Positions 7,406-27,170 of a DNA stretch of 64,000 nt are shown one piece after another; position 1 is the first letter of the stretch; each line of letters starts with the position of its first letter. Origin of the DNA: Burkholderiaceae bacterium. GTDB lineage: Bacteria > Pseudomonadota > Gammaproteobacteria > Burkholderiales > Burkholderiaceae_F. The position numbers and the translations under genes are program-made. The stretch lies in NCBI GenBank assembly GCA_022843955.1, contig JALHMQ010000023.1, positions 1 through 64,000 on the forward strand, read 5' to 3'. The notes beneath the pieces were generated by a model. That model saw only the letters and a program-made list of their open reading frames with translations, made no database searches and was not told the origin of the DNA.

Positions 7406-8065
7406 CTAGCGGGGCGCTACCTCCGCGGCAGCCGGCAATTCCAGCCGCGCGTCCAGCAGCCGGTCGCGCAGCGCCTGGATGCGAGTCTCCTCGCGCACCC
7501 GCCACAGGCCCGTTACCGGCTCACACAGGCGCAATCGATCCTTCTCGTACAGCGCGATCAGTTCCTGGCCGGTCGAGAGCGCGGCTGCATGGCGGGCTTC
7601 GCAGAGGTCGGCGCGCATGGCCTGCTGCTTCAGTCGGTTCCCCAGCGTGCTGCTGTCGAGTTCGAAGCGGCGCTGCTGAGCGGAAGCGGCCTGCGCGGCT
7701 GCAGCTAGAGCTTCGCTGTTCGTCTTTGACTCGGCACGCGCGCGCTCCAACTCGGATGACGCTTGCGCGAGCTGCCGCTTCAGGTCATCTGCTTCTAGGC
7801 GCAAGGCGCTTAGTTCCTTGCGTGCGGCCCCCGCGCTGGCGCGAACGGTTCCGAGCTCTTGCGCGACCTTGGAGGTGTCCTGCGCCTTGGCTGCAGCCTG
7901 ATCCCGCTCGCGCAAGAGCGTCGCGTTGTCCTGCTGCAGTTTCTGCAGCTGCTGTTGCAGTTGACGAATCTGTGCGCGCTCACGCTCGCCGGGTTGCTGC
8001 GCGAGCGATGCCGCGCTCACCGCGATTCCAAGCACCGCTGCTGCGATCAATCGAAACCAGCCCAT
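7406..8065 (-). CDS. periplasmic coiled-coil protein, last gene of the TPS/TonB operon
   Basis: About 219 residues. A signal peptide (MGWFRLIAAAVLGI... to SLAQQ) is followed by a long Gln/Glu/Leu/Arg-rich heptad region (~30-150), then a short globular C-terminus. The frame is open upstream, but the ATG at 8065 has a GGAGG Shine-Dalgarno and starts the signal peptide. It lies 16 bp after the porin gene, so it is clearly in the same transcript. Function is unknown; an elongated periplasmic spacer or scaffold between TonB/ExbB and the outer membrane is an inference from structure and position. No DNA-repair or SMC ATPase motif is present despite the coiled coil. Confidence 0.75.
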   Translation of the reverse strand: MGWFRLIAAAVLGIAVSAASLAQQPGERERAQIRQLQQQLQKLQQDNATLLRERDQAAAKAQDTSKVAQELGTVRASAGAARKELSALRLEADDLKRQLAQASSELERARAESKTNSEALAAAAQAASAQQRRFELDSSTLGNRLKQQAMRADLCEARHAAALSTGQELIALYEKDRLRLCEPVTGLWRVREETRIQALRDRLLDARLELPAAAEVAPR

Positions 8066-8081
8066 CGCCCTGCCTCCGGCA

Positions 8082-9725
8082 CTAGAACCGTGCATTGACG
8101 TCGACGAACACCGTGTCGACCTGCAAGCGCGGCGCGAGGTCGATGCTTTCGGCCGCAACGTAGCGCAGCGTCAGCGAGGTGTTGCGCGCCAGACCGTAGT
8201 TCAGTCCGACGAAGCCGCCCTTGGTGTCGGTGCCACCCAGGCGATAGTCGCCCGAGGTGAAGCCGTCTGGGACGGCGTCTCGCTCCAGGTATCGGTAGCC
8301 TGCAAACACCTGCCACTGGCCGAACGCTTCGAGCACACCGTGCCCGAACTGCACCTCGTAGCGATAGCCGGTGCTGCGCCGCCGCTCCAAGCCAGTCAGG
8401 CCGGTGCGATCGAACGGGAGACTCGCTGCAGCGGTGCCGATGCGGGCGGCAATCTCGTCCCGGTCGTAGCCGATGTTGCGCACGTAGTCTGCACTGACGC
8501 TGATTCGATACGGGTCAAACCGGCCGAGGGTGTAGTTGACGGTGGCGTTGACCAGTTGGAACTTGGAGGCAATGCCGAACAACTGCGCTCCTGTCGAGCT
8601 GCTCTGCGCCAGAATGTTGAACATCGTGTTGCCGCGCTGGCGGAACAATGGCGCCGACGCGTTGTAGAGGCCGTTGTCGGCCGGGTCAGCCGGATTGAGG
8701 CGGCCTTCGATGTTCTTGAAGTCATAGTAGGCGAGGCCGAGGTTCAGGCTCGAGTTTCCCGTCCCGCGCCAACCGGCACCCACCTGTGCGGCATACAGCC
8801 ATTTATCGGACGCAAGCGTCTGCGGTCCGCCGGCCACTTCACGCAGAGGATGGAGGCCAGCCGTGATCGAGGCACCCCAGGCCAGCGAGAACCGCGGCCG
8901 GTAGCTGAACGCCACGCCGTCCATCGTCAGGTCACTCGCCCAGACGAGGTCCGTCGTCAGGTACGGATTAACGGTCCGGCCGCCCAACAAGGAGAAGGTC
9001 GGCCGCGACCACTCGATGTACGCAAGATCGAAAGCGACGCCTTGACGCTGATTGAAGCGGCCCAGGTCGACATTGGCCGATACCGGGCTGTTCGAGTCGC
9101 CGCCACTGTTGGTCACGAGGCGCACGCCCGCGCGAACCTCTTCCGAGACGCGCGCGGTGACACCCAGGCGGGCGCGCACACGAATCCGCTCCCGATCGTC
9201 GGTCGTGTTCGGGGTGCTGCCCTCCGGCAGCTGTTGAAACGCATCGATCAATGCGGGAGACGAGTTGTCGGCGGCAAAGGCGTCGTACTGACCGCGCACC
9301 CGCACCGACCCGTCGAACGAGAACCGCGATATCCACGCCGGCAAGGTACCGGGATCACCCCAGCGCTCGGCACGTGCCTGCGCAAGCACCTCTTGACGAA
9401 TCTCATCGCGCAACTCGCGCTTGACGACCTCCGGAACATAGGGAACACGCACCACCGAACGCGGCGGCGGCAAAGGCGGAACCGCACCCGCTGCGGGCCC
9501 GGCAAGCAGTGCGGGATCAATCCCCGCCTCGCGCAGCATTTGCTCGGCGTTGGCCACCGTCAGTACCTTCTGGTCGACCAGTGCGCGGATCAGCGACAAG
9601 AGTGAGATCCGGATCTGTTCGACGCTTTCGCCGGTGGTGGCGGTCGCCTGCGCGCTCGAGGTGGCAGGTCCCAATGCCCCAAGAGGCAGCAGCACGGCTA
9701 GGGAGAGGCGACGAAGCATGATCAT
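8082..9725 (-). CDS. putative outer-membrane porin (Porin_5-like)
   Basis: A 547-residue protein with a signal peptide (cleavage near SSAQA) and a short helical segment containing ALVDQKVLTVANAEQML, typical of the putative porin family. A Pro-rich linker leads into a long beta-barrel of amphipathic strands (for example RVRGQYDA, RIRVRARLGV, GYRYEVQFGHG). The protein ends in Phe (VNARF), the usual terminal aromatic of BAM-assembled barrels. It sits between tonB and the coiled-coil gene in the TPS operon. It could be a substrate channel for the TonB module or a stabiliser of the surface adhesin; no plug domain or TonB box is evident, so it is not a classical TonB-dependent receptor. AAGAG precedes the ATG. 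Confidence 0.85.
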   Translation of the reverse strand: MIMLRRLSLAVLLPLGALGPATSSAQATATTGESVEQIRISLLSLIRALVDQKVLTVANAEQMLREAGIDPALLAGPAAGAVPPLPPPRSVVRVPYVPEVVKRELRDEIRQEVLAQARAERWGDPGTLPAWISRFSFDGSVRVRGQYDAFAADNSSPALIDAFQQLPEGSTPNTTDDRERIRVRARLGVTARVSEEVRAGVRLVTNSGGDSNSPVSANVDLGRFNQRQGVAFDLAYIEWSRPTFSLLGGRTVNPYLTTDLVWASDLTMDGVAFSYRPRFSLAWGASITAGLHPLREVAGGPQTLASDKWLYAAQVGAGWRGTGNSSLNLGLAYYDFKNIEGRLNPADPADNGLYNASAPLFRQRGNTMFNILAQSSSTGAQLFGIASKFQLVNATVNYTLGRFDPYRISVSADYVRNIGYDRDEIAARIGTAAASLPFDRTGLTGLERRRSTGYRYEVQFGHGVLEAFGQWQVFAGYRYLERDAVPDGFTSGDYRLGGTDTKGGFVGLNYGLARNTSLTLRYVAAESIDLAPRLQVDTVFVDVNARF

Positions 9726-9777: not shown

Positions 9778-10455
9778 CTAGCTGTCGCTGGAGGTCACGC
9801 GCACGCGTAGCGGCTGCGGTAACCCGTCGGGCACTGGCGTGCGAAGTGCTGCCATGCGCGACAGGCCATCGCGGATCAGGGCGGCGATCGTTTGGTCGTT
9901 GAGTCCATTGACCACCTCATAGCGCTCGATGCGCCCGTCGCGCGCAAACCAGATCTGCACTTCGATGCGGTACTCGACGTTGCGCAGCTGATCGATACGC
10001 GCCAACTCCTGCGCAATGTGACGCGCCGCGCCGTTGGCGAACATGGAATGGCTCAGGCCGCCTCCGCCGCCGCCGAGGGTGACGTCGCGGCCGCCTGGCC
10101 GGCCAGCCAGGCCGAAGCCGTCGCCCGCTCCGGTCCCCTGGGCATCGATACCGAGCGGGCCGGGAGGTGGCGCCTGCGACTCGGACTTCGGTTCGTCGGC
10201 GGGTCGGGGCGTGTCGATCTTCACCTCGTCCTGGACCTTGGGTGGCTCAGGCGGCTTCTCTTCTGGTTTGGGTGGTGGCGGCGGCGGTGGCGGGCGTAGC
10301 ACCGTCACCTGCTGCACCGTGCGTCGAGGCTGCTGGGCGCTGTCCGACCGCAGCCAGCTGATGAACCACCAGATCAGCGCGAGCGTCGCCAAGCCGAGCA
10401 GCGACAGCGCAATGCCGCGCGCGAACGAGGGGCGAGAGCGGTAGTCGGTACGCAT
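9778..10455 (-). CDS. tonB: TonB-family energy transducer
   Basis: A 225-residue protein. One membrane anchor lies at ~14-36. The Pro/Lys/Glu-rich periplasmic spacer (~54-100) contains eight consecutive prolines, and a Gly-rich segment covers ~108-133. A TonB C-terminal-like domain covers ~142-225 (YRIEVQIWFARDGRI, then NQTI-like helix and RVRVTS strand). In this family the protein carries proton-motive-force energy from ExbB/ExbD to an outer-membrane partner. It sits 16 bp after exbD and 52 bp before the porin gene. The dedicated linkage to a two-partner-secretion pair is the notable point. The outer-membrane partner cannot be named from sequence; no canonical receptor is encoded in the operon. 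Confidence 0.85.
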   Translation of the reverse strand: MRTDYRSRPSFARGIALSLLGLATLALIWWFISWLRSDSAQQPRRTVQQVTVLRPPPPPPPPKPEEKPPEPPKVQDEVKIDTPRPADEPKSESQAPPPGPLGIDAQGTGAGDGFGLAGRPGGRDVTLGGGGGGLSHSMFANGAARHIAQELARIDQLRNVEYRIEVQIWFARDGRIERYEVVNGLNDQTIAALIRDGLSRMAALRTPVPDGLPQPLRVRVTSSDS

Positions 10456-10471: not shown

Positions 10472-10873
10472 TCAGTTCACGATCCGCTGAGTCACCAGCC
10501 CGAGTTGCGTGATCTCGAGCTTCCCCATCAGGTCAAGCACGGCCATCACCTTCTCGTACTGCACCTTGGCGTCGCCCTTGATCACCACCGGCAGACTCGG
10601 ATTCACCGCCTTGAGCGAGCGCAGTTGCTGCTCGAGCTCAGCCATTGACACCGGATAGGCGTCTAAGAACATGCGGCCGTCTTCGGTGATCGTCACCGCC
10701 TTGGTCTGCGGCTTGGCCAGGCTCGGCGCATTGCTCGCCTTCGGCAGGTTGATCTTGATCCCCTGCACGCTGGCGGTGGTCATGATGATGAAGATGATCA
10801 GAAGCACATACGCGAGGTCGAGCATCGGCGTCACGTTGATGTCGTCGTAGACCTTGTCGTCCTGAACCTGCAT
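10472..10873 (-). CDS. exbD: ExbD/TolR-family proton channel subunit
   Basis: A 133-residue protein of typical ExbD length. A short cytoplasmic N-terminus leads to the transmembrane helix with the family motif INVTPMLDLAYVLLIIF. Asp19 in it aligns with the proton-carrying Asp25 of E. coli ExbD. The periplasmic part (LPVVIKGDAKVQYEKVMAVLD) matches the ExbD/TolR fold. GGAGG precedes the ATG. It is 13 bp downstream of the ExbB-fusion gene and 16 bp upstream of tonB, so it forms the inner-membrane motor with these two. Confidence 0.93.
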   Translation of the reverse strand: MQVQDDKVYDDINVTPMLDLAYVLLIIFIIMTTASVQGIKINLPKASNAPSLAKPQTKAVTITEDGRMFLDAYPVSMAELEQQLRSLKAVNPSLPVVIKGDAKVQYEKVMAVLDLMGKLEITQLGLVTQRIVN

Positions 10874-10886
10874 CGCAGCCTCCGCC

Positions 10887-12614
10887 TCAGTTGGACTGGT
10901 GTTCGGCCATCTTGGCCACGAACTCGTCCGAGAAGGCCTGCATGTCCGCGGTGATGCCCTTGATGCGCGTCAGCAGGTAGTTGTATCCGAACAGTGCGGG
11001 AATCGCGACGGTGAGGCCGGCCACCGTCGCCAGCAGGGCGGCCGCGATGCCCGGGGCGATCGCGTTGATGTTCACGTCCCCTGCCGCGGCGATCGCGGCG
11101 AAAGTGATCATCACCCCGATCACCGTGCCGAGCAGCCCGAGAAAGGGGCCGCCCGAGATGGCGATGGTCAGCAGCACCATGCTGCGGTTCAGGCGCTGCA
11201 TTTCGCGGATCAGCGTCGAGTCGATACTGGCCTTGATCGCGGTCATTGCCTCGGCACTTACACCACTGCGCTTCTGCTCGACCACGCGATGCCTCAGCTC
11301 CTTCATTCCCGTTTCGTAAAGGCGGGCCAACGACGAGTGCTTCAGCCGCCCGTTGCCAAGCGAGGTCGGCGGGGCGCTTCGCGGATCGAGAAACGCTGCG
11401 GGCTGCTTCTCGAACTCGTCGAGGAAGTCTGCGTTGCCGCGGTCGGTGCGCGCCAGCAACACGGCCTTGGTCGCCATCACGTAGAGGGCGATCACGAGCA
11501 TCAAGGCGCAGATGACGATGACGACGATCGCGTCGACGGTCAGACTGTTGAACAGCACCGCGATGTAGCCGTGGCCGCCAACGGATGCCGCTTCCTCCGG
11601 CTCGCCGTACACGAGCAGCTTGCCCTCCATCCCCTGTGTCGCCTCGGCGCGTATCGCAGCCGCCGAGCGCGCCACCGCCGCCAGATGGACAACGTCCAGT
11701 TCGCCGACATAGTCGAGCCCGAGCGTCAGGTCACCCGCGAGGTCACCGACCAGCGCGGCGGATTGCGTCACGACCTCAGCGCCGTTGACGAAGATCGCCA
11801 GCCGACTACCCGCGATGACGGCAAGGTGAGTCCACTCGCCCGCCACCAGCTTGCCGCCGCTGGCCTTGGCAGTGCCTAGCGCCGCGCTGACCGTGCCACC
11901 GGTCAGATCAACCGTAAAGGGCCCCCAGGCGAGGAGCCTGCCGCGCTGTACGTCGACGGGCTTGATCCAGGCGGAGAACGTGACGCCGGCGTTCGGGCCG
12001 CTCGCCGTGACTCGCGCCGCCGGGACCATCGCGACCCGCATCGGGGTACCAGAAAACACCGCCGACGTGCCGGCGAATCCGCCAGCGTTGGCACTGGCGC
12101 CAGCGGCAGCCACCGGGTTGGCGTACGCGCTGTGATCGGCGAACGCCGCCTGCGGCTGGGAGAAGTTCAGTCGCAGAAGTTCATCAGCACCGAAGACGCC
12201 CTTCGGGTCGTCGGCAGGAACCGCCTTGTCGTTGCCCGAGTACAACCAGAACGCCTCGGTCGACACGCCCGGCACGACCCGTGGTACCTGCACCCACAGG
12301 ATCGCCAGCTGATTGCCAACATCGAACACCTCGACAAAGTGCTTTAGGGGGGTCTTGTCATCCCCCGAAACGAATCGGATGTCGGTGCCGTCGGGCTTTG
12401 CATCGGAAAACAGAAAGTTGCCGCTATGCAGTCGAACGGCGACCGCAAGGGGTCCAACCGCCTCACGGATGTCGGCGCCTTGGGGGCTGGCATCGAGCGT
12501 GACCTTCTTTCGGTACTTCCAGTCCGGGTTCCACCACGCCTGCGCCGGCGAGGGCAGCAAGGCAAGCAGGAGCGTGGACGTCAGGAGGGCAAGGAGTACG
12601 CGCAAGCGATTCAT
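10887..12614 (-). CDS. DUF2341 + LamG-like + MotA/TolQ/ExbB fusion protein
   Basis: A 575-residue protein with a signal peptide (~1-26) and a DUF2341 domain from ~27 (WWNPDWKYRKKV). A LamG/concanavalin-like domain covers ~180-335 (TFSAWIKP, GEWTHLAVI, IFVNGAEV). Transmembrane helix 1 is ~358-380, and the ExbB/TolQ core has helices ~478-508 and ~518-545. The core keeps GTVIG and the LLATVAGL...AIPA signature (Thr497 and Thr530 align with E. coli ExbB Thr148 and Thr181). The intramembrane Glu of E. coli ExbB (Glu176) is Ala525 here. The ATG at 12614 is chosen because it begins the signal peptide. The periplasmic half would place a putative carbohydrate-binding module on a proton channel. It is followed at 13 bp by exbD. 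Confidence 0.9.
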   Translation of the reverse strand: MNRLRVLLALLTSTLLLALLPSPAQAWWNPDWKYRKKVTLDASPQGADIREAVGPLAVAVRLHSGNFLFSDAKPDGTDIRFVSGDDKTPLKHFVEVFDVGNQLAILWVQVPRVVPGVSTEAFWLYSGNDKAVPADDPKGVFGADELLRLNFSQPQAAFADHSAYANPVAAAGASANAGGFAGTSAVFSGTPMRVAMVPAARVTASGPNAGVTFSAWIKPVDVQRGRLLAWGPFTVDLTGGTVSAALGTAKASGGKLVAGEWTHLAVIAGSRLAIFVNGAEVVTQSAALVGDLAGDLTLGLDYVGELDVVHLAAVARSAAAIRAEATQGMEGKLLVYGEPEEAASVGGHGYIAVLFNSLTVDAIVVIVICALMLVIALYVMATKAVLLARTDRGNADFLDEFEKQPAAFLDPRSAPPTSLGNGRLKHSSLARLYETGMKELRHRVVEQKRSGVSAEAMTAIKASIDSTLIREMQRLNRSMVLLTIAISGGPFLGLLGTVIGVMITFAAIAAAGDVNINAIAPGIAAALLATVAGLTVAIPALFGYNYLLTRIKGITADMQAFSDEFVAKMAEHQSN

Positions 12615-12764: not shown

Positions 12765-15700
12765 TCAGTCATCGCCGAACCTGATGAACTCGCCGCGGAC
12801 GCGCTTGCGGCGCTCCTTCTCGGCGCGTTCCTCGGCCTCCTTCTGCTGGGCCGCGGCGGTACGTTGGGTCTCTTCGAGCGCCTTCGTCGCCTGGTTGCTG
12901 ACGCTCGAGGACGGCACCGGCGCAACGGGAGCAACCACCACGGCGCCGCCAGCCACGCCGCCCCCGGCCGAAATGTTTCCGGCGTTCAGCACGATGTTTG
13001 TGCCCAGCGTCACGGTGCCGGCGTCGGCGCGAATGCCGGCTTCGCCGGCGTCGATGAAGCCGCGCGGCGCGATCAGCCGAATGTCGCTCGGCGGCTGCTC
13101 GGTGCGCGTGCGCAATGCGCCGATGCCACTGCCGCTGACGCTGGCCGTGACGTCGAACGTGACGCTGCCATCGGGACCGATCGACAGGCGCGGCGGCGGT
13201 GCGACCGTCACGTCGCGCGGGCCGCGGCCGGCATCGATGTTGCCGAGCGACGACCACAGCTGGATGTCGCCACCGGCAATGGTGAACACGCGCGAGCGGA
13301 ACACGTCGAAGTTGTCGCGCACCGCGCCGAATACATCGCCGCTGCCGAGCGTGAGGATGCCGAGCTGATCCGGGCGCTTCTCGATCGCCCCGGCGGGCGG
13401 ATTACCCTGCCCCACCAGCACGCCGCCGCGCGGCGCAAACAGCGTCACGTCGCCGCTTTGCTCCGCCTTGATCTGGCTGAACACGAGCGAGATGTCGTTC
13501 GCGCCGACCGCACCCGCCGGCGAGTAGGCGGCGGCCAGATCGGTCAGCCCGCGCGCGAACGGTGTCCCCTGGCCCGGATCGACGCGGCCGGCCGCCCGCA
13601 GTGCATCGAGGGCCGTACCGCCGACTTGCAGCGTTGAGGCCAGCAGCTCCCGGCCGCCCGAGGACAGCGCTTCGTCGGACAGGCCGGCCAGCGCGCGCGA
13701 GAACGCGGACCGCGGGTCGTTGACGGCGGTTGGGTCAGCCAGCCCGAGGCGCAGCACCTGCGCGATGGTGTCCGGCAGCGCGGCCAGGACCTGCTCTCTC
13801 AGCGCCTGAGCGTTTGCGACGGCGTCGAACGGATTGCTGAGGACGAACTGGCGCAGGCCCTGCGCGTGGTCCTGGATGCGCGGGAACAGATCCGCCAGTG
13901 CCACGTAACCCGCAGCGAAGGTGTCGGTGTTGACGGTGGCGACGAAGCGCTCGTTGGCGACCCGCTGCACCTGCGTCACCAGCGTGATCGCCGCGCGCTG
14001 CAATTGCAGCGGCGACAGTGCGGCCAACTCGCGACTGATCGCAGAGTTCGGGTCGTCAATCGCGGCGCGGTTCGCCAAGGCACGCTGCAGGAGGTCGCGC
14101 ACCGCCGCGTCGAACTTGTCTTCCAGCACTGACGCGTTCAGCTCGATGGCATCGGTGCCAGCCGCAGCGAATGCGTCATAGCGGATGAACTGACGCAGGG
14201 CGTTCGCATAGTCCGGCGCCCTCGCAAAGCCGTCGGCGCCGCGCCCAAGGCCGGCTGCCACCACAAGCGACGCGCCTGCTTCCGGCAGGAAGGCGTTGGC
14301 AAGGTTGCCGCGCGAGACGATGCCACCGCCGGTGCCCAGGCTGATCGCACCACCTGCCAGCACCTCGGCCGCGCCGGCACCCCGAATCTCGATCGAGAAG
14401 TCGGTCGCGCTGCCGCCACTCGCAGAAAAGTCGATGTCGCCGCCAGCGCTGATGCGTGTGATGCTCTCTGCGTTCGCGTTTTGCACCAGCAGGCGCGCGC
14501 CATTGCCGATGTTCTGTCCAGCCGAAAACTCCGCGAACTTCGGCAGGTCGAACGTCACCGCCTCGATCGAACCGGTGCGCGCAACCACATGTACCGGTTC
14601 AGTGTCGGCGACATGAAGCGGCTGCGGCGTGCCGGCGTGGCGTGCCGTGGTCGCCAGGTCGAAGCTGCCGAGGGCGCCGCTGGCCGCGAACAGCGCTCGT
14701 TGCTCAGCCAGCGTGGCCGGCGCCCTTGCATTTGGCAGGGTCGACGGATCGAGGTCCGACATCACGATCGCCCCAGATCCGCCGATGCTGCCGTCGGCCA
14801 GCATGCGCAGCTGTCCGTTGGCATCGGGGAACATCAGCACCGAGCCGCCGATCTGCGTGTCGCCACTGAAGCTCACCAGGTCGACCGTGGACGGCGCGAT
14901 CAGGAAGGGGCGTCGGTCTGCAGTGTTGGCGCTCAACTGCGCGCCGTACACCGAGCTGAGCGAGCCACCGAACGACACGTCGCCCGTCAATGACCGCACC
15001 GACAGGGCGCTGTCCTCGCCATAGGTGGCGAAGGCGACGTTGCGCGGCGTGATGGCGTTGCCACCACCCGTAATCTGTGCGGTGGCTGGCGCCGCCCACG
15101 TGGGGTTGAATGCGACCACCACGCGCGCATTGCCGATCGCCTGCACGTCGGCTCGGTTGTTGCCGAGTGCGACCCGCAGCTGATCGCTCGCGGCCGATCC
15201 CTCGATCTCGCCGGCGCGCAGCGTGAGATCGCCGCGCTGCGCGTAGTAAGTACCGCCGCTCAGCCGCCGGCCGGCGCTCACGTCCAGCGAGCCGCCGTTG
15301 CGCTCCGCCAACGCATAGCCGGTCACTACGGTCGGGTCGGCAGCGGCGGTTTGTGCCTGCATGAACGCATTGGTAGGCACGGAGGCACCGACCCGGTTGA
15401 TGTCGCGACCGGCTCGCATCGACAGATCGCCGCCACCGAGGGCGCCTACGCCTTGCTGGAAACGGCCGACGTTCACCCACCATGCGGTTAGCGTGCCCGT
15501 GCTGAAGCCGCCGCTGTCGTCGAGGTCGCCGACGCGCCACAACCACTCGTTCACCAGCTGCGTGGAGCCGCTGGTCGAGCCGATGTCGCGGCCCGCCGTC
15601 AGCCGCACGCCGCCACCGTGCTGGGTGAACAGCGGTGGCGGATTCAGGGACGTCACCTGCGCGCTGGTGAAGGCAGGGCCAGCCACCGAAGCCACTCCGG

Positions 15701-18700
15701 CGCTGAAGATCACCGATGTCTGGCTGGCGAGCGTGATGTCGTTGGCGGCCGCGATGTCGATGCGGCCGGTACCGGTGCGCACCGCGCCGTTGGCGCCGAT
15801 CGTCACGTTGCCGCTGCTGCCAACGGTCGTCGCAGCACTTGCCGCACTGCGGTCGGCACCCGCGGTGAGCTGGACGCGCCAGCTGTCGCCTGCGGCGAAC
15901 GGCCGCAACGTTGGTGTGGTGCCACTCGCCGACCCCGTGACGCCGTCGGTCAGCAGCTGGGTGATGTTGATGTTGCCGCCGGCACGCAGCGTCAGCGCGC
16001 CCGGATCGCTGCCGGCCAGCGTGTTGCCGCCGTAGCGCCACTGGAACGGACTGCCGGTATCGCCCGTCACCAGCCCGGCGGTGAAATCGAGCGCTGTCGC
16101 CAGCGTGATGTCGCCCGGCGTGCGGATCTCCAGGCCTGGGCGCAGTGAGAACCCGGCGGTGCCGCCGCGGTTCAGGCGTGCCGCCATGGCGGCACGGTTG
16201 GCGGCCGACATGTAGTCGGACAGCGCGGTACGCAGCCCCGGCAGCGGATTGGCCGCCGTGGCGGCGCCGCTCGGCGACAGCGACAGGTTGCCGGTGAGGT
16301 TGGCGATCACCACCGCCTCCACCACCTCTTGCCGTGCGCCCTGCAGGTAGCTCGACGGCAGGGTCGCGATCGCCACGTCGTTGCCGACGCGCGCGCTGCG
16401 CAGGGTCATCGTGCCGTTCAGCGCCGCTACCGTGGCACCGACGTCGACCTGCGCACCTTCGCTGATGACAATCGCATCCAGCGCCGGGCGCGCGGCGGCG
16501 GCTTCGTGCACGCGCGCCGACAGCAGCACGCTGCCGCCCTCCTCGCTGGCTTGCGTCGCTGCGGCTGTGATGCGCGCAGTGGCGCCCAGCGCAACCTGAT
16601 CGCGGGCGTGCAACTCCACGCGCCCGCCGCGCGCTCCGCTCGCGTCGAGTGTGCCGTCGATGCGCACCTGGCCGTCGGCCGGCCGCGTGGCGCCATCGCT
16701 GCCGTCGGCGGCGATGATGATTTCGGCCGCGTCGATGCGCTGATCCGCGCCGAGCTGCGTATTGCCGCTGCGCGCGCGCACCGTCACCGATCGTGCCGGC
16801 GCGTCCCCGGCGCCGGCCGTCAGCGCGGTGGTGACCGCCGCCAGATCCGGCAGGCGGCCGACGTCGATCGTTACGCGCGCACCGTTCGCCTCGCTGCCGC
16901 GTGCGGTCGCCACCTCGCCGGACAGCTCGACCGTGCCACGCGTCGCGCTGATCGACAGGGCGCCGGCGTCGCCGCTGCGGCCGGCGCCGCGCAGGTCCAG
17001 GCGTGCACCGGCTTCCTGCCGGACCGAGCCACTCGCACTGGCCAACGCAACGCCGCCGGCCGACGCGTCCGCCTGCGTAGTGCCGAACGTCTGGGTGGTG
17101 CCGGCAACGTCGATCAGCGCGCCGCTGCCGAGGACCACGTCGTCACCGGCGTCGCTGCCGGTGGCGCGCAGCGTCACTGCGCCGGAAGGCGCGACGATGC
17201 GCCCGCTAACGTCGACGCGGCGTCCTTCGAAGGCCAGCGTGGCACCCAGATCGGCGGGTCGCTCGGCGCTCGCGGAACCGTTGGCCAGGAGTGCGAGCGC
17301 GCCGCTGGCAGTCACCCCGTGGTCCGCAGCCGAGGTTGCGGTCACCTGTGCAGCGGACAGCTGCACGGCGCCGCTCACATCCAGGCGGCCGCTGCCTTCG
17401 AAGCGGATCGTGCCGCCCGCGGCCGACGGTGCCGCCTGGGCACGCAGCCTCACCTCGTTGAAACCGGACACCTCGATGCGCCCTTCGCCGAGGACGATGT
17501 CCCCGGGCGCCCCGGCGCCGCCGACGGCGTTGATCACGAGCGCACCCTGCCCGCCGCCCGGCAAACTCGCCGTCGTGCCGGCGGTGTTGCGTAGCGTCAC
17601 CTGACCCGCCGTCAGGGTCGCGGTGTTGCCGTTGCTGCCCTGGCCGGTCAGGGCGCCGCCGTCGAGCGTCAGGCCTCGCAACGTCGGCGCCCCAGTGGCG
17701 TCGACCGTGCCAAGCGTCGCGGTGCCGAAGAAGTTGAACCCGCTCGCGCTGCGGATGGTGAAGCGCTCGGCGGTTGCGAACTGCGCCAGCAGGGTGTTGG
17801 TCAGCGTGAGGCCCGCGGTGCCGATGGGAACATCGCCGAAGTTGACGACCGCACCGCTCAAGCCGACGCTGCGCGCGTTCACGGCCACTGACGGTGCGAA
17901 GCGCTGTTCGCGCGTGCCGTCGAACAGCACCGCAGTGCCGGCCAGGCGCGCGCTGTCGGCGATGGTCAGGTCGCCTCGGGTGGCCGTGCCGGCCGCCGAC
18001 GCGCCGCTGCGCACCAGAGCCGGCACGTCGTCCGCATTGGCCACCAGCAGCGCCGCGCCGTCTCCGGTGAGGTTGATGCGTGGTGTCACCGGCGCCGATG
18101 CGCGCGCCTCGATGCGCGCGCCACTGCTGACCTCGACCGACTCACTGCCGGTCAGCAACACCTCTCCCGCGCGCAATTGGGCACCGGCGGCCACCGCCAC
18201 CCGCTGCGCACCGCGCGACAGGGTCAGGTTGCCGTCACCGTCGCGTTCGGCGCGTGCACCCAGGATCAACGACTCCGCCTGCAGCGCATCAAGGGCAGCC
18301 GCGGACAGCGTCACCTCGGCCTGCGGTGCGTCCGGTATGACGGCTGCGCTGGCACTGACAGTCAGAGACGGCGCGGCAAGTGCCACTTGCGCCCCGCGCC
18401 CGCCGGCCGCGGGCGCAGCGTCGATGGAGGGCGCAAAGCGCAGTTGATCAGCGGCGACCGACAGCGCGCCCGCGTCCACCGGCAGGCGCGGCGCCGGCTG
18501 CCCGGCGACCTGGGCGGCCGCGCCGAAGAATGCGCTCGCGCCGTACGTCTGGAACTCCGCCAGCCGGCCAAACTGCTCGCGCGTGTAGATGCGAAAGCCG
18601 CTCCAACGGGCTGTCTGGGTGCCGGCGTCGGCATTGCCAAGTCGTCCAGCAACGATCGTCGTGCCGGAGGCTTCCCGGATCACGCGCGCCGCATCCATGT

Positions 18701-21700
18701 CGCGCAGGCCCGCGACCGGCTCCACCGCCACGGCACCCGGCAGCAGCGCGTAGCGCGGTGGCATCACGGTGTAAGTACCGGCCGGGACCGGGCCGCCAGG
18801 GCCGATCGTGATCGTGCTGCCGTAGGCCAGCGTGCTCGCGTTGGAGCCCGCCGCCGCCGACGTCCCGGCATTGGTCAATGCCGCGGCATTGGTCGTCAGG
18901 TCCGCCATGACCAGCGGGTCGAACGGCGCCAGCGAGGTGCCGCGCGAAGGAACGAGCGCGAACAGCGCATTGCGCTGCGTCGTCGCCGCACCCGGCGCGG
19001 TTGGCACGAAGTTCTGCGTGACGTTGATCGAACCGCCGGGGCCTGCAACGAACTCCGCCCCGAGCAGTTCGCCACCGCCGCCGATGTCGATGCGTGCCCC
19101 CGGCGCGACATCCACGCTGCGGCCAGCGATGTCGATCCGTTTGTCGGGCAGCGTCGCGCCGCCGGGGGAGGCGAGCACGGCGCCGGTCGCTGCCGGGTTG
19201 TTCGAGTAGCTCCACACCGAGCGGTTGAACACCGCGCCGTAAGGCACCACGGCATTGCCGGCGACCGACAGTTCGGCCGTCGGTGCGATCTGCACCGTGT
19301 TGTCGGCCTGAACCACGATGGCGCCGTGCGGGGCCACCACGCGGCCCGTCTGGACGTAGTTGGGTGCGCTGAACGTCACGCTGCCGGCGGCGGACAGTGG
19401 ATCCACGGGGGCACTGCCGCTGGCCGCCACGCGGATCGTGCCAGCGGGCCGGTCGACCACACGCAGCGTGTAGTCGGTCTGCGTGACCGGGTACACCTGT
19501 GCCGCGGTGATGTTGATGTCGGCACTGGCGGTGAGTGAGCCGCGCGGGCGCACGTCGGTCGGACTGCCGCCGCCGCGCAACCGCAGGTCGTCGGCGGCGC
19601 GAACGTCGACCTGGCTCATGCCCTGCAGCGTCAAGTCACCGACCAGGTCGACGTTGCGGGCGTCGATCTGCAGCCGTCCACTGCCGCCTCGGGCGGCGGC
19701 ATCGACACCCGCTCCGGGTTGCACGTTGCGGGGCCCGAAGCCGATTGCCACGGTCGGTGCGTTCAGCGAGAGCGTGGCGTTGTCGCCGGTGCGCAGTACC
19801 TGCGATTCCAGCACCAGCGCACCGCGCGTGACCAGCGCCTGCGATTGGGGCGCCTCGATCACGTTGCTGGCCGACAGCCAGACCCGATCGAACCCAGAGC
19901 CGTTGACCAGCGAGGCCCTGACCCGGGCGCGGCCAGCGATCTGCCCGAGTTCGAAGCCCGCCCCCAGACCTGGGAGCGGTGTGCCCTGCGCACCGATCGT
20001 GAGCACCCGGTCCTGGCTGTAAAGTGCATCGAGCAGTTGGGCTTCGATGCTGACGCCGGGCACCTTCTGGTCCGGCGCCAATCCGCTCAGCTGCACCGAC
20101 AGGTTGCCGCCTGCAGCGCCGATGGCGCCGCCGCGCGCCTCGATCACGCCGTCGACCAGCAGGCCATTTTGCGCCGCCAGCGCCACGGTGCCGCCGGCCG
20201 ACGCCGCCTCGATGCGCGTGGCTGCGCCGTTGGGTCCGACATCGACCGCGTCCACAGTGCCGTTGGCACGGATCGTTGCCCCGGCATCGATCGCCACCGT
20301 GCCCAGTGGCGCATTCATGATCACGGTGCCGCCGTCGAGCACCTCGCCGCGGCGCAGCCCGCGCGCATCGGTCTGCACGGTGGAGACACCCGACACGTCG
20401 ACCTGGGCCTGGCTGCCCAGGTGGATCACGCGGTCGGCAAAGTTCTCCACGGTCGCAGTGGCTCCCGTCAGCGGCGTTGCGCTGAGCGACATCCGCACGG
20501 TGCCGGCGCTTGCCTGCAGTCGGCCGTCGACCAGGATGCGCTGGCCGGCGGCCAGCGTCACCTGGCCCCCCGATCCGACGTCGATCTGCGCTCCGGGTTC
20601 GATGCTGACCTGTCCGGTCGACAAGTCGGAGACGAGGTTGACGCTCGCCCCGCGTTGCTGCGTGGGCAGTGGCGCGTCGGCAGTTGCCACCGAAGTGATC
20701 GGGCTGCCGCTGGCCGCCAGTCGCGCATCGGGTGCGGCCACCAGGCGACGCAGTGATGGTTTGACCACCGCACCGAGCGCCACGCGCAGCGAATCGGTGC
20801 CGCGCAGCGTGAACGTCTCGAAGCCGCGGTCGAACAGGGTCGTGGTGACACCGGTTTCGCCCGCTGCCGACGCGCCGCCGATCTGCAGTCGCGGCGCGAC
20901 GATGCTCAGACCACCGCCGGCGCTGAAGCCGAAGCCGCTGATCCGCTGCTCGAAGTTGGCGCCCAGCACCAGGCTGCCGGTGTCGTTGGAGATACCCAGG
21001 CCGGACGACGTCTCGCTGCCACGCAGCGAAATCGTGCCCGCCCGACCTCCGCTGAGGCTGCCGTTGCGGTTGACCACGGCACCCGCGTCGACCGCCAGGC
21101 GAGTCACCGTGGACAGGTCCACGCGCCGACCACTGATGTCGATCGAGCCGCCGTTGCGGACGATCGGCGTGGTGGACTGTTCCTGCGGACCCAGCAGACT
21201 GTCGTTGCTGAAGCGGCCTGCGGTGTCCAGCGTCACGCCGACGCCGAACCGCACCGTGCCGCGGTCGGCGGCGTCGACCAGGTTGCGCGCTTCGCGCCGC
21301 ACGCCTTGCGCATCGTTGCTCGACAGCGGACGCTCGGCGATGCGCACGCTGCCGCCTGCGGCGGTGACCGAGGCGCCGATCTCGACCGCGTTGGCGTCCA
21401 CCGACAGCGAGCCGAACGCGCCCAGGTCCAACGGCGCATCCTGCGCCAGCTTGACCATGCCATCGCTCACGACCGCCACCTGGGTCACCCGGCCCGCACC
21501 CAGCAGCTTGGCGTCGACGGCGATCAGCCGGTCGCGCTGCTCCGGCGTCAGGGCGCCGGCGGCGGTCACGGTGTCGTTGGCGATCAGTACATGCGCGCGG
21601 GAGATCTCGGTCTGGCCATCTAAGGTGCTGTTGTCGCCGGTGCCGCCGATGCGCAAGGTGCCGCCCGCCGGCGGCGTTGTGCGCTGTCGCGTCCCGCTCA

Positions 21701-23711
21701 CCGTGTCGGCATCGATGCGCGCAGCGAGGGTGCCGCGCGGCGCGATGATCTCCACCGTGCCCGCCGCCTTGCCCTCGCTGAATCCGCCCACCACCGTACT
21801 GCGTGGCGCGTCGAAGCGGGTGCTGCTACTCACGCCCTCGCGCGGAGCATCCACGTCGCGCGTGAAGGTGTCGGAAAAGCCGACGTAGCGTGCGTTGGCA
21901 TTGGCTTGCATGATGTCGACGATGCGGCCGTTCTCGTCGATCAGCTGCGAGGTCCGTCCGCTCGCCGTCGAGGTGATGGTGCTGCCGCCTGAAATGTCGA
22001 ACACCGCGCCGGACGCGACGTCGACCGCACCCTCGGCGCGGATCGCGATGGTGCCTGCCGTCGCGTTGCGTTCCGCCTGCGTGCCGGCGACCGCACCGCG
22101 CCGGCTCGACAGATCGATGAACGGGTGGTCCTGCGAGACATTGACGTACACGCCCTGCCCGCGCAGGAAGCCATCGCGCTGCGATGGCGCATCGCGCAGA
22201 TCCGAACTGGTCAGGCGGTCGATGTAGACGAAGTTGCGCGCACCATCGACCGCCACGTCGCGTTCGCCGCTGACGTCGATCTTCACATCGCTGCCGATGC
22301 GGACGGTCGCCGCCCGGTCCTCCGTGCTCAGGATCTGGCCAGGCAGGCCGACCGTGCTCACGCCGCGGCGCGCACTGATGGTGACATCGCCTCCGCGCGC
22401 CTGCAGCACTGTGGCGCCAGGCGAACCGTTGCCGCCGATCTGCACCTGGCCCGCCTCGACGGTGATGCTCGAGCGCGCCTGTGCAGCGAACGCGTCGTTC
22501 AGCGGCGCGGTGGCGCGGTCGGTGGTGTCGAGCACGACCTCCGTGTGCGATCCGGAAGCAACGTTGACCTGGCCGGCGCGCCCGACTTGCAGGAAGTACG
22601 TCGGCTCCGGCTGGGTGAAGCCGAGAGGAGCACTGCCGTCGTTGCCGACCTGGCGCGCGATCAGCCGGATCGAACCGTTCTCGCGCAGGGCGGAGGTGGC
22701 ACTGATGCGGCCGGCCTGGTTCACGGCCATCCCCAACAACGTGACGTTGCCGCGCGCCGAGGTGATGTCGCCGCTGTGCGTGACGGCGCCGCCCTCCCCG
22801 ACCTCGACCAGCAGCCCACGCAGCGTGGGTGTGTTCGATCCGGTCAGGAAGATGCGCTGGCCGGCGGCAAAGATCACCTGCCCGCCCGCATCGACCTGAA
22901 TGCTGCCAGCGTTGTTGATCTCCGGCGCGAACAGGAACACGTTGCCGGCGCGCACCACGGTGCCGTTCTGGTCGCGGCCGGCGGCGAAGATCTGCGCGCC
23001 GTTGAAGACGTCGATCCGCCCGGCGGGGTTGGCTGCATCGTTGCCGAGCCCCCCGCTGAAGACGGGTATGGCCACGCGCGGATCGGACAGCAGCCCGGAG
23101 CGGATGCGGTCATCCGCGATGTTCAGCGTGGAGGCAATCAGCCCACCGACATCCACGCGCGCCGTGGATCCGAACAGCAGCCCGTTGGGGTTGACCAGGT
23201 AGATCTGTCCGTTGGCAAGGAGGTTGCCATCGATGCGGCTGACGTTGGGATCGTGGATCCGGTTCAGCGCCACCGAATTGGCGTCCGGTTGACGAAAGGT
23301 CACCGTGTTGCCACCGGCGATGTTGAAGTTTTGCCAGTTCAGCACCGCCGTGCTGGAGGTCTGGTTGATGGTGAGCGCGTTTGGGGTGGCGTTGACCGTC
23401 ACCGAACCGACTGGATTGAAGCGCACGTTCGGTCCGCACGCCCCGGGAATGCACTCGTTGGGCAGGCCGACCCGAGCGGGCGGCGGCGGCGGCAGCGTCT
23501 GCGCCTGCGGCGCCGACCAGGGCTGCAGCCCAGCGGCCACCGCCAGCACCGACCAACCCGTGGCACATGCGCGCAAGCGCAACCGCAGCAGCGGCGGTCG
23601 CAACAGCCAGGCCAGGCGCGCCAGGAGCGCGCTCAGCAGGCGCGACAAGCCGCGGCGACCGCGAAGACGCGCGCGAGCGAAGGCGGCGATTGGAGTCGTG
23701 CGAACGGTCAT
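12765..23711 (-). CDS. giant filamentous-haemagglutinin-family TpsA exoprotein
   Basis: A 3648-residue secreted protein, intact over 10.9 kb. A long, Arg-rich extended signal peptide (~1-70) precedes the TPS domain, which contains NPNGLLFG at 174-181 and the AQGITVNATPNALTINQ-like entry strand region. The body is an Ala/Gly/Val/Asp-rich right-handed beta-helix with many imperfect strand repeats. The C-terminal part holds a DUF3739-like segment (FDVFRSRVFTIAGGDIQLW). The last ~45 residues are a charged helix rich in Glu, Lys and Arg. Two cysteines (87, 92) sit just before the TPS domain. TpsB (immediately upstream) should translocate it across the outer membrane. GGAG precedes the ATG. Adhesion or biofilm function is likely by family, not proven. 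Confidence 0.95.
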   Translation of the reverse strand: MTVRTTPIAAFARARLRGRRGLSRLLSALLARLAWLLRPPLLRLRLRACATGWSVLAVAAGLQPWSAPQAQTLPPPPPARVGLPNECIPGACGPNVRFNPVGSVTVNATPNALTINQTSSTAVLNWQNFNIAGGNTVTFRQPDANSVALNRIHDPNVSRIDGNLLANGQIYLVNPNGLLFGSTARVDVGGLIASTLNIADDRIRSGLLSDPRVAIPVFSGGLGNDAANPAGRIDVFNGAQIFAAGRDQNGTVVRAGNVFLFAPEINNAGSIQVDAGGQVIFAAGQRIFLTGSNTPTLRGLLVEVGEGGAVTHSGDITSARGNVTLLGMAVNQAGRISATSALRENGSIRLIARQVGNDGSAPLGFTQPEPTYFLQVGRAGQVNVASGSHTEVVLDTTDRATAPLNDAFAAQARSSITVEAGQVQIGGNGSPGATVLQARGGDVTISARRGVSTVGLPGQILSTEDRAATVRIGSDVKIDVSGERDVAVDGARNFVYIDRLTSSDLRDAPSQRDGFLRGQGVYVNVSQDHPFIDLSSRRGAVAGTQAERNATAGTIAIRAEGAVDVASGAVFDISGGSTITSTASGRTSQLIDENGRIVDIMQANANARYVGFSDTFTRDVDAPREGVSSSTRFDAPRSTVVGGFSEGKAAGTVEIIAPRGTLAARIDADTVSGTRQRTTPPAGGTLRIGGTGDNSTLDGQTEISRAHVLIANDTVTAAGALTPEQRDRLIAVDAKLLGAGRVTQVAVVSDGMVKLAQDAPLDLGAFGSLSVDANAVEIGASVTAAGGSVRIAERPLSSNDAQGVRREARNLVDAADRGTVRFGVGVTLDTAGRFSNDSLLGPQEQSTTPIVRNGGSIDISGRRVDLSTVTRLAVDAGAVVNRNGSLSGGRAGTISLRGSETSSGLGISNDTGSLVLGANFEQRISGFGFSAGGGLSIVAPRLQIGGASAAGETGVTTTLFDRGFETFTLRGTDSLRVALGAVVKPSLRRLVAAPDARLAASGSPITSVATADAPLPTQQRGASVNLVSDLSTGQVSIEPGAQIDVGSGGQVTLAAGQRILVDGRLQASAGTVRMSLSATPLTGATATVENFADRVIHLGSQAQVDVSGVSTVQTDARGLRRGEVLDGGTVIMNAPLGTVAIDAGATIRANGTVDAVDVGPNGAATRIEAASAGGTVALAAQNGLLVDGVIEARGGAIGAAGGNLSVQLSGLAPDQKVPGVSIEAQLLDALYSQDRVLTIGAQGTPLPGLGAGFELGQIAGRARVRASLVNGSGFDRVWLSASNVIEAPQSQALVTRGALVLESQVLRTGDNATLSLNAPTVAIGFGPRNVQPGAGVDAAARGGSGRLQIDARNVDLVGDLTLQGMSQVDVRAADDLRLRGGGSPTDVRPRGSLTASADINITAAQVYPVTQTDYTLRVVDRPAGTIRVAASGSAPVDPLSAAGSVTFSAPNYVQTGRVVAPHGAIVVQADNTVQIAPTAELSVAGNAVVPYGAVFNRSVWSYSNNPAATGAVLASPGGATLPDKRIDIAGRSVDVAPGARIDIGGGGELLGAEFVAGPGGSINVTQNFVPTAPGAATTQRNALFALVPSRGTSLAPFDPLVMADLTTNAAALTNAGTSAAAGSNASTLAYGSTITIGPGGPVPAGTYTVMPPRYALLPGAVAVEPVAGLRDMDAARVIREASGTTIVAGRLGNADAGTQTARWSGFRIYTREQFGRLAEFQTYGASAFFGAAAQVAGQPAPRLPVDAGALSVAADQLRFAPSIDAAPAAGGRGAQVALAAPSLTVSASAAVIPDAPQAEVTLSAAALDALQAESLILGARAERDGDGNLTLSRGAQRVAVAAGAQLRAGEVLLTGSESVEVSSGARIEARASAPVTPRINLTGDGAALLVANADDVPALVRSGASAAGTATRGDLTIADSARLAGTAVLFDGTREQRFAPSVAVNARSVGLSGAVVNFGDVPIGTAGLTLTNTLLAQFATAERFTIRSASGFNFFGTATLGTVDATGAPTLRGLTLDGGALTGQGSNGNTATLTAGQVTLRNTAGTTASLPGGGQGALVINAVGGAGAPGDIVLGEGRIEVSGFNEVRLRAQAAPSAAGGTIRFEGSGRLDVSGAVQLSAAQVTATSAADHGVTASGALALLANGSASAERPADLGATLAFEGRRVDVSGRIVAPSGAVTLRATGSDAGDDVVLGSGALIDVAGTTQTFGTTQADASAGGVALASASGSVRQEAGARLDLRGAGRSGDAGALSISATRGTVELSGEVATARGSEANGARVTIDVGRLPDLAAVTTALTAGAGDAPARSVTVRARSGNTQLGADQRIDAAEIIIAADGSDGATRPADGQVRIDGTLDASGARGGRVELHARDQVALGATARITAAATQASEEGGSVLLSARVHEAAAARPALDAIVISEGAQVDVGATVAALNGTMTLRSARVGNDVAIATLPSSYLQGARQEVVEAVVIANLTGNLSLSPSGAATAANPLPGLRTALSDYMSAANRAAMAARLNRGGTAGFSLRPGLEIRTPGDITLATALDFTAGLVTGDTGSPFQWRYGGNTLAGSDPGALTLRAGGNINITQLLTDGVTGSASGTTPTLRPFAAGDSWRVQLTAGADRSAASAATTVGSSGNVTIGANGAVRTGTGRIDIAAANDITLASQTSVIFSAGVASVAGPAFTSAQVTSLNPPPLFTQHGGGVRLTAGRDIGSTSGSTQLVNEWLWRVGDLDDSGGFSTGTLTAWWVNVGRFQQGVGALGGGDLSMRAGRDINRVGASVPTNAFMQAQTAAADPTVVTGYALAERNGGSLDVSAGRRLSGGTYYAQRGDLTLRAGEIEGSAASDQLRVALGNNRADVQAIGNARVVVAFNPTWAAPATAQITGGGNAITPRNVAFATYGEDSALSVRSLTGDVSFGGSLSSVYGAQLSANTADRRPFLIAPSTVDLVSFSGDTQIGGSVLMFPDANGQLRMLADGSIGGSGAIVMSDLDPSTLPNARAPATLAEQRALFAASGALGSFDLATTARHAGTPQPLHVADTEPVHVVARTGSIEAVTFDLPKFAEFSAGQNIGNGARLLVQNANAESITRISAGGDIDFSASGGSATDFSIEIRGAGAAEVLAGGAISLGTGGGIVSRGNLANAFLPEAGASLVVAAGLGRGADGFARAPDYANALRQFIRYDAFAAAGTDAIELNASVLEDKFDAAVRDLLQRALANRAAIDDPNSAISRELAALSPLQLQRAAITLVTQVQRVANERFVATVNTDTFAAGYVALADLFPRIQDHAQGLRQFVLSNPFDAVANAQALREQVLAALPDTIAQVLRLGLADPTAVNDPRSAFSRALAGLSDEALSSGGRELLASTLQVGGTALDALRAAGRVDPGQGTPFARGLTDLAAAYSPAGAVGANDISLVFSQIKAEQSGDVTLFAPRGGVLVGQGNPPAGAIEKRPDQLGILTLGSGDVFGAVRDNFDVFRSRVFTIAGGDIQLWSSLGNIDAGRGPRDVTVAPPPRLSIGPDGSVTFDVTASVSGSGIGALRTRTEQPPSDIRLIAPRGFIDAGEAGIRADAGTVTLGTNIVLNAGNISAGGGVAGGAVVVAPVAPVPSSSVSNQATKALEETQRTAAAQQKEAEERAEKERRKRVRGEFIRFGDD

Positions 23712-23799: not shown

Positions 23800-25440
23800 T
23801 CAGTACTCGTAGCCCAGGCGCAGGTGCCAGCGATCCTCGTGCTTGGGCGTGATCGGTCCCGCCAGGCCACTGCCGCCCTCGATCAGCGCCCGCGCCACGT
23901 CGGCCGCCAGGCGCAGACCGTGCCAGTTCCAGCGCAGCCCGACGGCGAGGCTGTACAGGTTCTTGCGCCGGAACTGCGGACCCTGCGGATCGACGATCTC
24001 GACTTCGCCGCCGTCGGCGCCGATCAGCAGGAACAGGCTGCGACGAGGTGACTCCTTGTCGCGCCCCAGCGGATAGCCGCGCAGTTCGAGCGTGGCGCGG
24101 TAGCCGCGATCACCGAACAGTTCCGCCTCCCGATAGCCGCGCACGCTCTCGGCGCCGCCCAGGCTGAACTGCTCGTTCGGGATCAGCGGCTCGCCGCTCC
24201 ATTGCCCCTCGAGCTTGCCGTAGGCACCCAGCCACCGGCCCAGTCCGTGTTCGTGCAGCAGGTCTGCCTTCCAGGCAAAGTAGCCGGCGCGCGCGAGCAC
24301 GCGACGACCGGCGAACTCGCGATCGTTGTTGCCGAACAAGCCGCGTGGCGCGGTGGTCAGCGATCCGGAGAACTGCGTCCCGGATGACGGTCGGGTCAGC
24401 GTGCCGCTGTAGGTCAGCGACAGCGGCACGTAGCTGATCGGCGGCAGCACGTCGATCGCGCTCGAGCCCGCGGCAATGTTGGTCTGGCCAAAGTCCTTGT
24501 AGTCGAGGCCGCTGTTGATCGAGTGAAAGTAGCCACCGCGGGCCGGCAGCGGATGAATCCAGCGCAGGCCGGCAATCCGGGCTTTGCCCAGCACGGTAGA
24601 GCTGCCCACCAGCGCGACCTCGCTGTTGGAGCGCACTGCAAACACCGACAGCACATCCGGCGAGCGCTCGAAACGCCACAGGTAGGTGCCCACCAGGACG
24701 TCGACCTCGTCGCGGTTCTCGGGAGACACCTGGTAGGTCAGGCCGAGGCTGTGTTGGCGCTGCCACAGGTTGTCGTAGCGCACGGTGGCCGACAGGCGCG
24801 TGTCGGTGGTGAACGGCGACGCACGGTTGTTGACTTCGACGTCCACATGCAAGGGCAACTGGTCCTTGACGTTCAGGTCGACTTCCACGGTGCCCGGGAT
24901 CTGGCCCTGCCGCAGCACGGGCGTCACCTGTCGATCCGGCAAGCGATTGACCTGGGTGAGCTGGGCCTGCAGTGCATTGAAGTTCGGCACGCTGCCTGGG
25001 GCGAACTCGCCGACCACGGCACGAATCTGCCCGAGCGCGTAGTAGCGCGCGCCCAGGACCCGCACCCGATCGACGCGACCTTCCACCACGCGCAGTCGCA
25101 CTACGCCGCCGACGACGCGCTGCTCCGGCACGTCGACGAAAACGGTCTGGTACCCCAGGCGCTGGTAGGCCTCTTCGAGCGCCTTGCGCGCAGCTTCAAC
25201 GTCACGAATGCTGCGCTTCTCGCCGAGGTGGGGATACACCACCCGCTCGATCTCCAGGGTCGGCAGCACGCTGTTGTCCTCGATCACGAACTCGAGGATG
25301 TCGAAGTTCTCGCTGGTCGGAGCGGATGCTGGCTGTGCCCATGCGGCAAGCGAAACCACGCAGCCGAGGATGCCCAGGAGGACCAACCGAGGTTGCTTCA
25401 GAGCATCTATCAGGGTACGGACACCGAAGAACCAGTGCAT
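23800..25440 (-). CDS. TpsB (ShlB/FhaC/HecB-family) outer-membrane transporter
   Basis: A 546-residue transporter. The signal peptide ends near AAWAQ. POTRA-like domains occupy ~35-190 (IEDNSVLPTLEIERVVYPHL and GGVVRLRVVEGRV regions). A 16-strand-type barrel follows with the superfamily's VRGY motif in the L6 loop (GAESVRGYREAEL), and the protein ends in LGYEY. The frame is open further upstream, but the ATG at 25440 begins the signal peptide; no strong Shine-Dalgarno is seen. It is the first gene of the operon, and tpsA starts 88 bp after it, which fits a cognate TpsB/TpsA pair. Transport in TPS systems is normally not TonB dependent, which makes the downstream tonB-exbBD module unusual. Confidence 0.93.
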   Translation of the reverse strand: MHWFFGVRTLIDALKQPRLVLLGILGCVVSLAAWAQPASAPTSENFDILEFVIEDNSVLPTLEIERVVYPHLGEKRSIRDVEAARKALEEAYQRLGYQTVFVDVPEQRVVGGVVRLRVVEGRVDRVRVLGARYYALGQIRAVVGEFAPGSVPNFNALQAQLTQVNRLPDRQVTPVLRQGQIPGTVEVDLNVKDQLPLHVDVEVNNRASPFTTDTRLSATVRYDNLWQRQHSLGLTYQVSPENRDEVDVLVGTYLWRFERSPDVLSVFAVRSNSEVALVGSSTVLGKARIAGLRWIHPLPARGGYFHSINSGLDYKDFGQTNIAAGSSAIDVLPPISYVPLSLTYSGTLTRPSSGTQFSGSLTTAPRGLFGNNDREFAGRRVLARAGYFAWKADLLHEHGLGRWLGAYGKLEGQWSGEPLIPNEQFSLGGAESVRGYREAELFGDRGYRATLELRGYPLGRDKESPRRSLFLLIGADGGEVEIVDPQGPQFRRKNLYSLAVGLRWNWHGLRLAADVARALIEGGSGLAGPITPKHEDRWHLRLGYEY

Positions 25441-25639
25441 CGAGTTCAGTCGTTTGCGTTTATGTACTGCAGCGCCCACAGCGGTCGAACGCCTGCGGTG
25501 GCCGTGCCCAGTGAAGCTGCATTGAACGGGCGAAAGATGACGGTCGCGTGATACGGCGCACATCCGACCGCGCCGCACCCAGACACGTCGCGCCTGATGC
25601 ACACCTCGATCACGGGATCTCAGTTGCGGAAAGACAAAC
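25441..25639. promoter_or_regulatory. probable promoter region of the TPS/TonB operon
   Basis: About 200 bp between the terminator hairpin and tpsB. The 18-kb minus-strand operon most likely starts here because the preceding transcript appears to end at 25640-25670. I could not assign reliable -35 and -10 boxes. Confidence 0.4.
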
Positions 25640-27106: not shown

Positions 27107-27170
27107 TGGGTTCTCCCAAGAAGTGGATGTCACACCGGACCGGTAGGCCCGGTGTGGTTGGAAGGAGCGG

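Follow-up and report, generated by a model that had tools for sequence, protein, structure and literature searches.

In ordinary Ton systems, proton flow via an ExbB pentamer and ExbD drives TonB. In known two-partner secretion (TPS, type Vb) systems, translocation across the outer membrane uses no energy source, and in HMW1, HxuA and CdrA the last TpsA residues remain periplasmic (PMC5422565). HxuA works with the TonB-dependent HxuC (HxuA/HxuB/HxuC, PMC5422565). The pdtA-phdA-pdtB-exbB2-exbD2-tonB4-PA0696-PA0697 region of P. aeruginosa represents the PUMA3/sigmaVreI regulon; its genes are co-expressed and its Ton genes have been called 'still uncharacterized' (PMC2729926, PMC7035377). The region is under sigmaVreI control during phosphate starvation (PMC7035377).

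Additions to the subunits of such ion transporters are common and diverse, and DUF2341 is named as an added domain on generic ion-transporter A subunits with no function assigned (PMC12505986). The main text of that paper does not mention LamG, whereas the family described here carries both DUF2341 and LamG. The other appended domain named there is DUF3450, and TtpB of Vibrio is a DUF3450 protein (PMC6957404). Vibrio TonB2 with TtpB/TtpC/TtpD is likewise a Ton module with extra essential parts (PMC6957404), but these extra domains are unrelated to DUF2341/LamG and the system serves iron uptake, not TPS. DUF2341 is also found in archaeal pilus-associated proteins (PMC4858521, PMC10133366). A literature search showed no paper on DUF3739 and no function reported for a DUF2341-LamG-ExbB fusion.

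The locus and its P. aeruginosa counterpart

The window, i.e. the whole 64-kb stretch of DNA that was analysed, carries a gene cluster on the minus strand, and all coordinates of cluster features below refer to that strand. An exbB gene (10887..12614) encodes an ExbB/TolQ-type proton-channel subunit fused to a signal peptide and a predicted periplasmic head. tpsA and then tpsB lie upstream; exbD, a TonB-type gene, a Porin_5 gene and a coiled-coil gene lie downstream. This clustering of tpsA, tpsB, exbB, exbD, tonB and a porin gene is that of a pdt/PUMA3-type locus, with a gene set common to the P. aeruginosa pdt region and in nearly identical order. In contrast to PUMA3, no VreAIR-like genes were found beside the window cluster, which adjoins PEP-CTERM/exosortase/T2SS genes. 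A Klebsiella plasmid locus (L061) displays the full PUMA3-like order with ECF sigma, anti-sigma, YbjN, PPIase and LysR genes, and has the fused ExbB as well. Because this locus of the same order carries the fusion, synteny indicates that PA0693 is probably fused too.

The TpsB transporter (23800..25602) shows POTRA_2 and a ShlB barrel by Pfam. In several TpsB sequences of the DUF3739 class, POTRA1 follows soon after the signal peptide, with scant space left for a plug helix H1 and linker like those of FhaC. The TpsA exoprotein (12765..23711) is 3648 aa long and has an N-terminal TPS domain and a C-terminal DUF3739 domain (12948..13274) by Pfam. The ExbD/TolR partner (10472..10873; PF02472, 5.7e-29) carries the TM aspartate motif TPMLD, and the membrane aspartate is conserved in relatives. 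The TonB-type transducer (9778..10455) has a TM anchor, a proline-rich span, a C-terminal domain and the conserved block LGxDxxGxxxxDxFGLxxxxGGR. The window protein gives no Pfam TonB match of its own; 20 of 22 aligned TonB-type members match TonB_2 and TIGR01352 tonB_Cterm, and it is only through these relatives that its C-terminal domain is assigned. The Porin_5 outer-membrane barrel (8082..9725) matches PF16930 with an E-value of 3e-137. The secreted coiled-coil protein (7406..8158) is in the position of PA0697 and has relatives in several clusters; its true start is probably an internal ATG. Upstream of tpsB, here as in several relatives, is a gene for a secreted protein with no Pfam match (25724..27133).

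The 150-bp gap between tpsA and exbB contains a 15-nt inverted repeat (87% complementary, window 12713-12751). Folding of this hairpin region was no better than that of shuffles, and no Rfam RNA was found in the 64-kb window. Adjoining the cluster, positions 27171-57268 hold a PEP-CTERM protein, a secretin, a T2SS F protein, a LuxR regulator and an exosortase/EPS cluster, with EpsH, Wzz, O-antigen ligase and glycosyltransferase genes at 47-57 kb. EPS-type genes are also found near locus L037. A BTAD/AAA regulator and an RCC1-repeat protein are encoded near the window cluster (399-3566 and 4031-5563).

The fused ExbB protein

The reading frame is uninterrupted from the ATG at 12614 to the stop at 10887 and encodes 575 aa, in the order signal peptide, DUF2341, LamG-like domain and TolQ/ExbB core. 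An in-frame ATG upstream, at 12725, is the start given in the ORF list; 12614 is preferred since the signal peptide begins there. The signal peptide (residues 1-26, 12537..12614) was read from the sequence without a dedicated predictor; it has a hydrophobic stretch at 6-24 and a predicted cleavage between AQA and WW, in the context PSPAQA/WWNPDW. The mature protein would begin WWNPDW, and a WW..W..RK-type start right after the cleavage site recurs in relatives. The DUF2341 core (residues 75-141, 12192..12392) matches PF10102 with E = 5.9e-12 and 46.3 bits (cut-off 23.4). The LamG-like (concanavalin A-like) domain (residues 207-321, 11652..11996) matches Laminin_G_3, PF13385, with E = 3.1e-7 and 31.1 bits (cut-off 27.6), and the MotA/TolQ/ExbB core (residues 429-559, 10938..11330) matches MotA_ExbB, PF01618, with E = 5.7e-28 and 97.7 bits (cut-off 22.9). 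All three Pfam matches exceed the curated cut-offs.

The window protein was aligned with 23 relatives that share 34-56% identity with it. DUF2341, LamG and MotA/ExbB are present in a single frame in all 24 members by Pfam, PF10102 included, which rules out an assembly or frame artefact or a chance fusion. An oddity of one genome is ruled out by the 23 relatives and by plasmid records, 11 of which contain a relative covering at least 80% of the fused ExbB; no relative was found in viral contigs. The head region is conserved from residue 27 onward. W28, W32, N66, F67, D78, R80, W107, P111, Y125 and N128 are invariant, approximately 35 head positions are near-invariant across distant bacteria, and mean column identity is 0.61 in the DUF2341 region versus 0.45 in LamG. 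Thus the fusion is a real, conserved and defined part of a TPS-Ton locus type.

A first-pass annotation, made from the sequence alone, had proposed this fusion in one frame with a signal peptide and had identified the N-terminal domains as DUF2341 and LamG-like, and both proposals are confirmed here. It had also placed about 350 residues in the periplasm ahead of the core. TM1 of the channel is at residues 362-380 (11475..11531, hydropathy 3.2), and the topology of the ExbB family is N-out; from these, residues 27 to ~355 are predicted to be periplasmic. The placement of the head therefore stands but its length is ~330 residues. As to fold, AlphaFold2 modelled the LamG core confidently as a beta-sandwich (block pLDDT 80-90) and Foldseek matched this part of the head with pentraxins and agrin LamG, so the LamG half is predicted to fold as had been supposed. 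The DUF2341 half showed a pLDDT of about 40-55 and no reliable model, because the alignments used had three rows (two true relatives). In a profile search of solved structures, LamG-type domains and TolQ were matched where they had been expected. A PF13385 match above cut-off and a predicted jelly-roll fold together point to a LamG domain. Clostridial neurotoxin binding domains, also among the Foldseek matches, have only the jelly-roll fold in common and are not taken as a sign of kinship in function.

The PF01618 match, the three-TM topology and the ExbD partner assign the protein to the MotA/TolQ/ExbB proton-channel family, with the channel helices after residue 360. The core is homologous to that of ExbB/TolQ in TonB-ExbB-ExbD and Tol-Pal, ExbD and TonB are found alongside, and the TM2 and TM3 threonines are common to both (T497 and T530, invariant in the fused family). 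The fused family differs from ExbB/TolQ in its head with signal peptide and in the replacement of the TM3 Glu by Ala or Ser. Alignment to TolQ/ExbB structures puts A525 (codon at window 11040-11042) in the position of this Glu (APGIAEAL), and the 24 aligned members show 22 Ala and 2 Ser. Of the headless proteins checked, six TolQ-like ones retain the Glu; a more distant, ExbB-like protein in L054 is also without it. The protein is not an ordinary TolQ (130.8 versus an NCBIfam equivalog cut-off of 221) or an ordinary ExbB (66.5 versus 206).

NCBI annotation already names such fused proteins 'DUF2341 domain-containing', so the fused architecture is already annotated, and the locus type is known. 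Within the searches made here, the pairing with DUF3739, the tail motif of TpsA, the missing glutamate and a V-ATPase-linked subfamily appear to be new.

Pairing with DUF3739 exoproteins and the TpsA tail

In all 24 aligned loci exbD and tonB are directly downstream of the fused exbB, and in 18 a tpsA with C-terminal DUF3739 is found inside the same ~20-kb slice. In the remaining loci the contig is short, or TpsA is encoded at a greater distance (22 kb away in G010, for instance) or on a different contig. The typical order, tpsB-tpsA-exbB(fused)-exbD-tonB-Porin_5, is present in most loci examined and also in annotated plasmids of Aquabacterium, Klebsiella and Methylosinus (beta-, gamma- and alphaproteobacteria).

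At the genome level, DUF3739 is present in 22 of 23 fusion-carrying genomes versus none of 56 size-matched genomes without the fusion. The one exception, G104, is 85% complete and in about 340 contigs. Fisher's p of about 1e-18 serves as a guide only, because genomes were assigned to the two groups according to whether they carry the fusion, and they are phylogenetically non-independent. An independent phylum-wide draw gave eight further genomes with DUF3739 and the fusion in all eight (in one it is truncated at a contig end, and in another a single 681-aa frame was matched in two pieces). Eight listed genomes of this draw without DUF3739 have headless ExbB/TolQ only, and no split or headless version of the fused ExbB was seen among DUF3739 carriers. 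The motor does not accompany every TPS: G021 and G119 contain non-DUF3739 TPS proteins, on contigs other than that of the motor. The pairing of fusion and DUF3739 is well supported, and the link to a TPS system that the first-pass annotation had suggested is upheld by this near-obligate association across genomes; its interpretation as a whole is partly supported. The fused motor is very probably a dedicated companion of DUF3739 TPS. So constant a pairing suggests that a secretion pathway thought to be energy-free has a dedicated motor, and such near-perfect tracking of one TpsA class makes it directly testable whether some TPS use the proton gradient.

All 26 collected DUF3739 TpsA tails display a strand-like motif, typically (L/I)xVE(V/I/F)(L/I)GFG(D/E/G), or VE[VI][LI]GFG[DEG] in short form. 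It lies 38-51 residues past the end of DUF3739, at the C-terminus or up to 54 residues before it. This placement, which is not strictly terminal, suggests a motif for binding and not a carboxy-terminal tag. The strict pattern is matched by 23 of the 26 tails, and visible variants are LEVVVEGFG (L042), LEVFVEGLG (L058) and LMVEILAFG (L067). A diverged form (GEFI.FG) is found in L001 and in the window, where the tail reads VRGEFIRFGDD (12768..12800). The strict pattern was matched 0.0 times per set of shuffled tails and, among about 1200 other ORFs, only by a TpsA fragment that belongs to the collected set. Per column, the motif holds on average 2.5 bits of information and the tether 1.1. The motif is absent from three TPS proteins without DUF3739, including those in G021 and G119. 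The likeness to a TonB box is one of character only, i.e. an alternating hydrophobic strand followed by Gly. Export of TpsA starts at the N-terminus, and the tails of some other TpsA proteins are periplasmic (PMC5422565); the motif is therefore well placed for a periplasmic partner. HMW1, HxuA and CdrA are retained by a disulphide loop or LapG control, whereas DUF3739 TpsA has the strand-like motif, with no conserved cysteines in it, and an adjoining motor operon. The motif is short, is now defined and can be removed in one experiment.

Possible roles of the module

In the leading explanation of the locus, the motor would power TpsA or control it. Protons passing through the ExbB pentamer and ExbD would drive TonB, and the DUF2341-LamG heads, going by ExbB stoichiometry, would sit as a five-membered collar of beta-rich units on the motor's periplasmic side. 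The most likely substrate would be TpsA, threaded N-terminus first through TpsB, its last ~50 residues (a low-complexity tether and the strand-like motif) staying periplasmic. The C-terminal domain of TonB and/or the head would bind the tail motif, perhaps by strand addition, and with the help of the proton gradient the giant exoprotein would be held, put under tension or released. That the fused module energises some step of DUF3739 TPS is likely. Action through the tail is rather doubtful when taken by itself; it would entail contact of TonB or the head with the tail, and work done on the tail. The proposal of a dedicated proton-driven ExbB-ExbD-TonB module for DUF3739 two-partner secretion, probably acting on the periplasmic TpsA tail, is made tentatively, at somewhat under an even chance. 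A still more specific form, a PMF-powered branch of TPS in which lectin-headed ExbB-ExbD-TonB docks a TonB-box-like TpsA strand and holds, tensions or releases the exoprotein, is unlikely, though if true TonB would have a secreted protein as its client in place of an outer-membrane receptor. The proposal also offers a possible role for the uncharacterised exbB2-exbD2-tonB4 genes of P. aeruginosa.

Porin_5 is retained in TPS-linked clusters, where it follows tonB in nearly all cases, and being nearly as conserved in the cluster it may be the real partner of the module. The Ton genes would then energise this PA0696-like barrel for small-molecule uptake or efflux, with the TPS exoprotein as a capture device comparable to HxuA/HxuC. 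The HxuA/HxuB/HxuC precedent (PMC5422565) and the phosphate-starvation control by sigmaVreI (PMC7035377) agree with such a role, but Porin_5 has no plug domain or evident TonB box and no porin is found beside the V-ATPase-linked or L053 paralogues; on balance it is unlikely. In the alignments inspected, no evident conserved TonB box was found in TpsB or the porin.

The head is situated on the channel subunit itself, and it could be a sensor of unsecreted TpsA or of an envelope polymer that gates proton flow, so that the motor is on only during secretion. The greater variability of LamG relative to DUF2341 is as expected for a recognition surface, but it may reflect weaker constraint, and there is no known ligand; this role is improbable. 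More improbable again is that the head binds a glycan (capsule, EPS or peptidoglycan) and so anchors the motor. LamG-like folds often bind glycans and the window cluster is near exosortase/EPS genes, but this fold also binds proteins and lipids, and in the slices read no EPS neighbourhood was seen next to most relatives. A purely structural scaffold, which stabilises or sorts the complex with no ligand and no role in energy use, would be one more of the common and diverse subunit additions (PMC12505986), but it is very improbable given the near-invariant head positions and the lack of a headless version among DUF3739 carriers.

A second subfamily

The fused ExbB sequences of L047, L053 and L054 group together in a single clade, with support of 100/98. 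ExbD and TonB are present with the fused ExbB in this clade, but neither a porin nor a DUF3739 TpsA gene is directly beside them. This paralogous clade without an adjacent DUF3739 TpsA indicates that the link of the head to TpsA is not a strict one, and it weakens the idea that TpsA is all that the head recognises. All three genomes also have a TPS-linked copy. V-type ATPase genes B, D, I, K and A come before the L047 cassette, and V-type ATPase genes B and D come after that of L054; the L053 cassette has T2SS genes on one side and a small TPS-domain protein on the other. Such placement right next to V-type ATPase genes (L047:5603-16243, L054:1768-6605 and L074) occurs in two genomes of different families. 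Two other loci display two exbD genes in tandem (L002:11686-12562 and L060:19640-20456).
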